DNA of 32,403 nt from Candidatus Eiseniibacteriota bacterium. GTDB taxonomy: Bacteria; Eisenbacteria; RBG-16-71-46. Where the stretch lies: the NCBI GenBank assembly GCA_025360715.1, contig JANYBS010000234.1:1-32403 (forward strand), read 5' to 3'. Shown piece by piece: positions 28,232 to 31,050 of the stretch; within the stretch, counting starts at the first letter, position 1; every line of letters starts with the position of its first letter. The notes beneath the pieces are model-generated. The model worked only from the letters and a program-made list of their open reading frames with translations. It did no database searches and was not told where the DNA came from. The position numbers were made by a program, and so were the translations under genes.

Positions 28232-29725
28232 ATGACCACTATCACCCCTGACACCGCCCGCCCCGTCGCCTGCGCGAACGCCATTCGCCGATTGAGCGAT
28301 GCGCAAGTCGTGCTTCCGACCTTCGCCGAACTGGCCGATCCCTCGCTCATCCCGGCGCGGATCACGCATGCGCTGGAATCGGTCGACCCCGACGCCGCGC
28401 ATCCGCTGAACCTGTTCCGCGTGCACTGGTGGAACGATGCGTCGCGCCGCGGCCGCGCGAATGTGCCCGAGCATGTGGTACTGCCGAAGTCGTTCACGGG
28501 CGTCGATGCGAAGATTGCCATAGCCCTGGGCAACCGTTTTCCCATGATCCATGCGCACAAGGTGCTCGCGGCGTATGCGTGCCTGGTGCCGCGTCTAGTG
28601 CGCGGCGAGTTCGACCCGGGCACTCAGCGCGCGATATGGCCGTCGACGGGCAACTACTGCCGCGGCGGCATCGCGATCTCGCGGCTGCTCGGTTGCCGCG
28701 GCGCTGCGGTGCTGCCCGAGGGCATGAGCGCGGAACGTTTCGCGTGGCTCGACCGTTGGGTGAGCGAGCCCACGGACATCATCCGCACGCCGGGATCCGA
28801 AAGTAATGTGAAAGAGATCTATGACAAGTGCGCGGAACTCGAGCGCGACCCTGCGAACGTGATCCTGAACCAGTTCTCGGAGTTCGGGAATCACTTGGGC
28901 CATGTGGCGGTGACCGGCAGTGCGCTTGCGGCCGTCTTCCAGCATCTGCAAGACGCGCAACCCACGCTCAAGCTGGCGGCGTTCGTCTCGGCCACGGGCT
29001 CGGCGGGCACGATCGCTGCGGGCGATGCCCTGAAGGACCGCTGGGGTACGCGTATCGTCGCCGTGGAGGCGCTCGAATGTCCGACGATGCTCGAGAACGG
29101 CTTTGGCGAGCACAACATCCAGGGCATCGGCGACAAGCATATCCCGCTCATCCACAACGTGATGAACACCGACATCGTGGTGGGTGTGAGTGATCACGCG
29201 ACCGATCAGCTGGGATTGGTCTGCTCCACCGACGAGGGCCGCGCGTGGCTGCGCGAGGTGCAGGGCGTGCCGGTCGACGTGATCGACGCGCTGGCGTCGT
29301 TCGGGCTCTCGAGCCTGTGCAACATCGTTGCCGCGGTGAAGACGGCCAAGAAACTGGGCCTTGGCGCCGACGACGTGGTGATGACCGTGGCCACCGACGG
29401 CGACGCCATGTATGGCAGCGAGCACACGCTCGCGCGCGCCAGATACCCCGGCGCGGGCTTCGCGCGAGCGCAGGCGGCCGAGGCGTTCCAGAGCTGGATG
29501 CTGGGCGCCGACACGAGTGCCACCGAGGTGCTCGACGACCATGGCCGGCGCCGCATCTTCAACCTGGGCTACTTCACCTGGGTCGAGCAGCGCGGCGTGT
29601 CGCTGGAAGCGTTCACGGCGCGGCGCGACCAGAGCTGGTGGCGCAGCCTGCGCGCAGAGGTGCCGAAGTGGGACGCGATGATCGCCGAGATGAACGCGCG
29701 CACAGGTGTGCTGGACCGGCTGTGA
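28232..29725 (+). CDS. Fold-type II PLP-dependent enzyme (cysteine-synthase-like 'subunit beta' family)
   Basis: This 497-residue protein resembles a poorly characterised family of cysteine-synthase/tryptophan-synthase-beta-like PLP enzymes found, as remembered, in clostridia and other anaerobes. The probable Schiff-base lysine is K110 in [14 protein letters not shown] substrate/cofactor loop reads [11 protein letters not shown] (137-146), followed by [18 protein letters not shown] and [18 protein letters not shown]. Other family blocks are [20 protein letters not shown] and [17 protein letters not shown]. The C-terminal segment with [17 protein letters not shown] is characteristic. It is not the YgeX diaminopropionate ammonia-lyase. 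The substrate is not known; the context suggests an amino acid released by the neighbouring catabolic operon. The next gene overlaps its stop. Confidence 0.82.
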
Positions 29726-31050
29726 AGCACGCACCAGGACTGTGTTGCGCGGGCTGCGGGGCAGTCGTGACAGGCGACTGCGCCGGCCCGTTCCGCTGCC
29801 CGTGTGCGACCTCGGGTGACGACCGCGACCACGTGCTGGTACCGCAACCGCCGCCCGACTCCGCCGTGTTCGCGCACGCCCAGGCCCAGCAGCCGTTCGT
29901 GCGATACCGCGAGCTGCTCTGGAGCTACCGCTGGTCCCGCTCGCACGGCATGAGCGACCAGGATTTCGTGACCATGGCCATGGAACTCGATCATGCCGTG
30001 GCGGACATCGACGGTCGCGGATTCGTGGCCACGCCATGCGCCCCTCAGCGCACGCTCGCCAAGGCGATCGGCCTGGCGTCGGACGAACTCTGGATCAAGG
30101 ACGAGACCTGCAACGTGAGTGGTTCCCACAAGGCGAGGCACCTGTTCGGTATCGCGCTGGTGCTCGAGGCGCAGGAACGCTTGGGGTTCGCGGACCGCGC
30201 GAGCCGCGCCACACAGGAACTCGCGATCGCATCTTGCGGCAATGCCGCGCTCGCCGCCGCGGTCATCGCGCGCGCGGCCAAGCGGCCCCTGCGCGTGTTC
30301 ATCCCCGGCGATGCGAATCCGCGCGTGGTCGAGCGGCTGCGCGCGCTGGGCGCGCACGTCGAGACCTGCGAACGCCGCGCCGGTGACTCCGGCGATCCGT
30401 GCGTGCATGCGTTCGCGCGCGCGCGCAAGCGCGGCGCGATCCCCTTCTGCGTGCAGGGCAACGAGAACGGCCTCACGATCGAAGGCGGCCAGACGCTCGC
30501 GTGGGAGATGGCCGAGACCTTCGCCGCAGCAGGCGTGGCGCCCGACCGGATGTTCGTACAGACCGGCGGCGGCGCGCTCGCCAGTGCGCTGGTGACCGGC
30601 ATGCGGCTGGCCGTTTCGCGCGGCGTGCTGCCGCGGCTGCCGCGACTGCACGTGGTGCAGACGCAAGGCGCCACGCCCCTGCGCCGCGCATGGGAGCGCG
30701 TCACGGCCCACACTGGCACGCTCGCCGATGCCATGCAGGAAGCGCGCGGGCATCGCAGCCGCTACATGTGGCCCTGGGAGAATGCCCCGCACAGCGTGGC
30801 GCACGGCATCCTTGACGATGAAACGTACGACTGGGCCAATGTGGTGGAGGGAACGGTCGAAAGCGACGGCTGGCCCGTGACCGCGAGCGAGCACACGCTC
30901 ACGAGCGCGCGCACACTGGCGCACGCGACCGGCATCCAAGCCGACGCCACCGGCGCCGCCGGCCTGGCGGGGCTCATGACGCTCGCGCACGACGACGTGA
31001 TCGGCGAAGGCGAGTGCATCGCATTGGTGTTCTCCGGGGTCGAGCGGTAG
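29722..31050 (+). CDS. Fold-type II PLP-dependent enzyme with N-terminal zinc-ribbon (threonine/cysteate-synthase-like)
   Basis: This 442-residue protein starts at GTG, overlapping the previous stop (GTGA). This start is preferred because it keeps an N-terminal cysteine cluster (C8, C9, C12, C20, C26, C28; CCAGCGAVV ... FRCPCA) like the rubredoxin/zinc-ribbon head of some threonine-synthase-like proteins. The PLP lysine is K137 in [29 protein letters not shown] binds the substrate carboxylate or phosphate, and [15 protein letters not shown] is the glycine-rich PLP-phosphate loop. A later block, [23 protein letters not shown], ends the recognisable core. Beta-elimination or beta-replacement on a small amino acid is the likely reaction type. 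Translational fusion to the other PLP enzyme suggests a shared pathway or complex. Confidence 0.85.

Follow-up and report, generated by a model that had tools for sequence, protein, structure and literature searches.

YgeX (TIGR03528, PRK08206), the 2,3-diaminopropionate (DAP) ammonia-lyase encoded by E. coli b2871 (structure 5ygr), is a fold-type-II PLP enzyme with the Asn-loop motif TDGNHG, in which the residue preceding G-N, D120, serves as the base towards the D isomer; in serine racemase a serine takes the equivalent position. The enzyme is established as the last of the reductive uric acid degradation pathway, in which HyuA is D-stereospecific and YgeX accepts both DAP isomers (PMC12507026). 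This reductive purine pathway, elucidated only in 2025, has already been described (PMC12507026, PMC12990295), with its stereochemistry listed as an open question in a commentary (PMC12990295). In the literature on the pathway we found no mention of a replacement for YgeX. Compared with the pathway of E. coli and C. difficile (PMC12507026), the genome studied here has XDH, YgfK, SsnA, HyuA, YgeW, carbamate kinase and YgeY in common, but YgfK is divided between two genes, SsnA is short, and YgeX is missing, with a pair of different PLP enzymes, here called PLP1 and PLP2, encoded instead.

The window, that is, the whole stretch of DNA analysed, is contig JANYBS010000234.1 (32,403 nucleotides) of a Candidatus Eiseniibacteriota bacterium (GCA_025360715.1), whose genome is 96% complete. 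Its purine-degradation cluster lies on the minus strand and comprises a carbamate kinase (YqeA/ArcC; 26973..28208; PRK12352, 310.9 bits, above the cut-off of 266), the true start of which is probably further downstream; a YgeW-type carbamoyltransferase (25829..27019; PRK07200, 369.8 bits, cut-off 453); a YgeY-type M20 hydrolase (24273..26054; PRK13004, 176 bits, below the cut-off of 321); a molybdenum hydroxylase of the selenium-dependent xanthine dehydrogenase type (XdhD-like; 21619..24276; TIGR03311, 903.8 bits, above the cut-off of 830); a short SsnA-type amidohydrolase (20510..21979; TIGR03314, 236.6 bits over model positions 58-321 of 441, cut-off 455.5); and the N-terminal half of YgfK (18741..20534; TIGR03315, 402.9 bits over model positions 3-417 of 1012). 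The short form of SsnA is also the best SsnA match in most genomes with PLP2. YgfK is split, with its N-terminal, ferredoxin half in the window and a GltD-like FAD/NAD half on a second contig of the same genome (C244; L170:3831-5156), where it covers model positions 440-837, the part missing from the window gene, and overlaps by 4 nt with HyuA (TIGR02033, 545 bits). XDH and HyuA score above their cut-offs, and YgeW, YgeY, SsnA and YgfK are recognisable below theirs. Counting HyuA and the other half of YgfK on that contig, the set of the reductive purine pathway, from XDH, YgfK, SsnA and HyuA to YgeW and YgeY, is complete save for YgeX.

The sequence-only reading had called YgeX absent and had named a ygeX gene elsewhere in the genome as the finding that would overturn its proposal. 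We found none: the best TIGR03528 match in the genome reaches 20.4 bits against a cut-off of 532, and falls on proteins other than PLP1 and PLP2. Nine PALP proteins are encoded in all; the seven besides PLP1 and PLP2 are of the threonine/serine-dehydratase-like (among them a threo-3-hydroxyaspartate ammonia-lyase type), CysK/CBS, ThrC or TrpB types, with one unplaced. The class as a whole is nearly devoid of YgeX, since a search of its 47 genomes with the E. coli protein as query returned one weak match only.

Divergent from the purine cluster, as the same reading had it, two adjacent plus-strand genes encode PLP1 (28232..29725; 497 aa, ATG start; PF00291, 52.5 bits) and PLP2 (29722..31050; 442 aa, GTG start at 29722; PF00291, 138.6 bits), both above the PF00291/PALP cut-off of 35 bits in the profile search. 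Each has the PALP domain, the Schiff-base lysine and the invariant S-x-G-N Asn-loop of fold type II. The genes are coupled through a start/stop overlap, GTGA (29722..29725, plus strand), in which GTG at 29722 begins PLP2 and TGA at 29723-29725 ends PLP1, an arrangement shared by some homologous pairs; the reading of PLP2 from this GTG forms part of a longer mechanical open reading frame (29245-31050). Of the earlier description of the pair as "fused-translation" enzymes, the 4-nt overlap is real, and a protein fusion it is not. Neither protein matches a YgeX model at E 1e-5, in keeping with the claim that both lie outside that family. OrtB (2-amino-4-oxopentanoate thiolase) and SbnA were rejected as identities for either protein, their models being absent from the matches at the same threshold. 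A mechanical open reading frame for a transglutaminase-like protein (window 31014-31835; PF01841, 28.9 bits) overlaps the end of PLP2; its annotation is unrelated.

PLP1 belongs to the cysteine-synthase (CysK/OASS/CBS) branch of fold type II. It shares its fold and Asn-loop with cysteine synthase/O-acetylserine sulfhydrylase (TIGR01139) and cystathionine beta-synthase, and its AF2 model (pLDDT 90) retrieves OASS/CysK in Foldseek. Its best NCBIfam match, cysK, nevertheless reaches only 67.8 bits of a cut-off of 350.95, and two features set it apart from cysteine synthase, a stretch of 16 residues (not shown) and some 100 additional residues at the C-terminus. The predicted Schiff-base lysine, K110, lies in an H-K motif that is invariant in 19 and in 32 aligned relatives; the Asn-loop, STGN (138-141), is likewise invariant in the alignments and places a threonine at the position equivalent to D120 of YgeX. 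PLP1 also occurs on two rhizobial plasmids without purine genes.

PLP2 is assigned, from its sequence and predicted structure, to the threonine-synthase/serine-racemase/DAP-lyase branch, its AF2 model (pLDDT 93) retrieving ThrC, serine racemase and the DAP ammonia-lyase 5ygr in Foldseek. Threonine synthase with an N-terminal ribbon (NF006050/PRK08197) is the nearest branch in both sequence and fold, but PLP2 remains below the ThrC cut-offs (88.4 of 303 bits for NF006050, 32.3 of 167.1 for TIGR00260), has SHKARH for SFKDR and SCGN for STGN, and coexists in its own genome with a separate ThrC (436.7 bits). The predicted Schiff-base lysine, K137, is invariant in 27 aligned relatives and lies in GSHK (GS[HQ]K across relatives), so that both lysines named in the earlier reading are borne out; its correspondence to K77 of YgeX is one of motif position, the MAFFT alignment having left the two lysines unaligned. 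C172, in SCGN, is a cysteine in all 52 PLP2 sequences and aligns with D120 of YgeX (MAFFT). An N-terminal zinc-ribbon-like CxxC...C, an addition relative to YgeX, is present here and in most relatives, as had been noted for the window protein, and is absent or degraded in roughly a fifth of them, so the ribbon is not essential to PLP2. PLP2 gave no match in viral contigs, and none was found on plasmids.

Within the class, PLP1 accompanies the purine pathway almost without exception. Among the 47 genomes, 16 encode PLP1 and 17 YgeW, with both in 16, YgeW alone in 1 and neither in 30 (Fisher 1e-11). In the sole genome with YgeW and without PLP1 (G016), an ordinary-looking CysK-group enzyme and a ThrC-like enzyme of a further type (f37) share a small contig with YgeW, so that the layout of one CysK-group and one ThrC-group enzyme is retained even there. 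The f37 type, which is threonine-synthase-like, occupies the slot in six further loci of class relatives (L038-L040, L043, L045 and L046). One genome (G023) holds two types of PLP1 (L037, G023:C650; L032, G023:C336), one with PLP2 and the other with YgeW, YgeY and carbamate kinase; here contamination (5%) may be involved.

When GTDB genomes were scanned with an alignment of PLP1, at least 587 relatives came up; the best 80 loci were retained, and partners were counted by tblastn and over whole genomes. In 52 of these best 80 loci, from several phyla, PLP2 lies immediately 3' of PLP1; the junction is a 4-nt overlap in 19 of the 52 pairs, and 51 of them lie within 55 nt. With identities of about 40-67% across phyla, the conservation of the pair is far beyond chance. 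Many of the 80 loci carry SsnA, XDH, YgeW, YgeY, YgfK or HyuA. The clearest layout is that of a Rubrivivax (L099), where ten genes on one strand read XDH-SsnA-PLP1-PLP2-YgeW-YgeY-YqeA-YgfK-carbamoyl-amidase-like-HyuA, with YgeW, YgeY and YqeA 81%, 82% and 75% identical to their E. coli counterparts; no YgeX was found in that genome. Conversely, at 28 of the best 80 loci PLP2 is present but the fetched flanks yielded no call for any purine gene family, and in many Actinomycetota the pair lies far from purine genes. The sequence-only reading had regarded a pair widespread without any purine cluster as fatal to its idea; the pair is indeed often away from purine genes, yet 34 of 35 genomes with PLP2 encode SsnA.

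The last count comes from a sample of 50 PLP1-bearing genomes, 31 of them picked for purine genes at the locus, in which PLP2 occurs in 35, YgeX in 10 and both in one. PLP2 is thus associated with SsnA (34/35; Fisher 4e-7) and mutually exclusive with YgeX (1/35; Fisher 1.7e-5, and 0.002 within genomes positive for SsnA), values that are optimistic and indicative only because the genomes are phylogenetically non-independent and were picked by PLP1. With SsnA scored as present at a match of at least 185 bits, 38 of the 50 genomes pass; 34 of these have PLP2 (one with YgeX as well), three YgeX alone, and the last (G054) an f37-type, ThrC-like gene directly beside SsnA. In one further genome PLP2 is present and the SsnA match is weak (G081, 144 bits). 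PLP2 and YgeX are both present in a Desertimonas (L132) and lie side by side at locus L114. Eleven Alphaproteobacteria have PLP1 without PLP2 and without an SsnA match of at least 185 bits, six of them with YgeX, and at four loci (L150, L157, L139 and L154) PLP1 adjoins YgeX homologues with the D120 motif. When partners are mapped on the PLP1 tree, the YgeX label needs six changes, at least four of them forced by supported branches, so the partner was exchanged repeatedly. The comparison of neighbourhoods with and without ygeX, which the earlier reading had called for, therefore separates the two genes of the pair: PLP2 and YgeX exclude each other in nearly all of the sampled genomes, and PLP1 coexists with YgeX.

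Since the SsnA-positive genomes divide among them, PLP2, the f37 type and YgeX are alternatives for one slot. PLP1 alone is ruled out as the replacement by its coexistence with true YgeX (for example at L150 and L157); this coexistence, and the occurrence of PLP1 in Hyphomicrobiales that lack a similarly strong SsnA match, mark it as a companion. The original idea that the pair replaces YgeX jointly is revised for the same reason: a divergent fold-type-II enzyme in place of YgeX is supported, but it is PLP2, and not PLP1, that is mutually exclusive with it. We propose, as the reading that we consider rather probable, that PLP1 and PLP2, conserved and translationally coupled, make up a module in a form of the reductive purine pathway that lacks YgeX, with PLP2 as the functional counterpart of YgeX. 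A further-reaching version, which we put forward only tentatively, would make PLP2 a new family of DAP ammonia-lyases with a Lys/Cys acid-base pair that displaces YgeX non-orthologously across phyla, and PLP1 the catalyst of an obligatory, undescribed DAP-type step common to purine degradation and an F420-linked catabolism in Hyphomicrobiales.

As to the substrate, products and stereochemistry of PLP2 and the role of PLP1, we infer the following scheme. PLP2 would most likely form an external aldimine with DAP, remove the alpha-proton by K137 (L face) or C172 (D face) and expel the beta-amino group, releasing 2-aminoacrylate, which would yield pyruvate and ammonia. Because C172 occupies the D120 position in addition to K137, a two-base active site is possible, as would suit an enzyme whose substrate is the D isomer or a mixture. 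It counts against the proposal that a D-face cysteine is not known as a hallmark of DAP lyases. PLP1 might carry out a separate step with this C3 diamino acid, or with a derivative substituted at nitrogen, as its substrate, be it isomer handling, ureido-alanine elimination or beta-replacement, with L-DAP, albizziin or another N-substituted diaminopropionate as candidate substrates; the threonine in STGN, together with the CysK-like fold, suggests an L-specific beta-elimination or beta-replacement. That E. coli manages without PLP1 counts against the role assigned to it here.

The same residues could be read as a stereochemical split, with PLP1 serving as the ammonia-lyase for L-DAP and PLP2 either as the one for D-DAP or as a DAP racemase, the two together equalling the promiscuous YgeX. 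YgeX takes both isomers (PMC12507026), C172 would give PLP2 a second potential base, PLP1 has a threonine there within an L-specific, CysK-type fold, and the two genes are adjacent and coupled; beside the D120-motif homologues of YgeX, however, PLP1 would be a redundant second lyase, and we regard this division of labour as unlikely. Somewhat less likely still is that the true DAP lyase is PLP1, with PLP2 in an accessory role, as a racemase or acting on a side product. PLP1 is the constant element, found in 16 of the 17 YgeW genomes of the class, and four purine loci (L083, L091, L103 and L150) have it with no PLP2 nearby, but their genomes hold YgeX or an f37-type enzyme, and the SsnA-poor Hyphomicrobiales also encode PLP1. 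Albizziin (3-ureidoalanine) is among the pathway intermediates (PMC12507026), and PLP1 might be a lyase that eliminates urea from it and bypasses YgeY, leaving DAP to PLP2; YgeY is missing from the flanks of four loci with the pair (L084, L086, L088 and L102), but it accompanies PLP1 in the window and at L033-L038, L090, L095, L096 and L099, which renders such a bypass improbable. That the pair serves ordinary serine, threonine or cysteine metabolism as a chance or loosely linked neighbour is very improbable, because, even though the pairs of Acidimicrobiia and Ilumatobacteraceae sit amid housekeeping genes (MurI, RdgB, ClpP, YifB), those groups too show strong co-occurrence with SsnA and strong exclusivity with YgeX, and the Eisenbacteria genome has separate dehydratase-, CysK/CBS-, ThrC- and TrpB-type proteins.

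What would the module mean for the distribution of the pathway? If PLP2 stands in for YgeX, the pathway extends to many environmental phyla that YgeX-based searches miss, namely Actinomycetota, Myxococcota, Acidobacteriota, Gemmatimonadota, Eisenbacteria and Pseudomonadota. The published survey of SsnA neighbourhoods marked YgeX by PF00291 alone (PMC12507026), and since this profile detects PLP1, PLP2 and the f37 type as well, the resulting map is unable to separate the families; the spread of the pathway has thus been judged in part by a marker blind to the difference between YgeX and PLP1 or PLP2. The pathway itself is known, and its proposed YgeX-less variant has good comparative support. 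The constant presence of PLP1 points to a step that the pathway as described, or its stereochemistry, still lacks.

PLP1 and the pair also occur in other genomic settings. The PLP1 loci of Hyphomicrobiales (L128, L137, L141, L145, L147, L153 and L159) vary in gene content, with neighbours for F420 biosynthesis (CofC, CofD, CofE, CofGH, Npd), an F420-type luciferase-like oxidoreductase, a CoA-transferase pair, 5-oxoprolinase-like PxpABC and molybdenum hydroxylases. Judged by these genes, the cluster is probably an N-heterocycle degradation pathway, a catabolic setting other than purine; pyrazinoate degradation is one idea for the F420 context, for which the literature we searched gave no paper. 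In eight Acidimicrobiia loci (L104, L108, L110, L130, L136, L142, L143 and L151) the pair stands beside housekeeping genes and a divergent BhcC-like gene of the 3-hydroxy-D-aspartate aldolase type. Four purine clusters (L045, L046, L084 and L088) carry two carbamoyltransferases, YgeW and an aspartate-carbamoyltransferase-like one (f33), with no YgeY in the fetched stretch; in these, phosphorolysis might act on both ureido groups, so that each purine would yield two molecules of carbamoyl phosphate.
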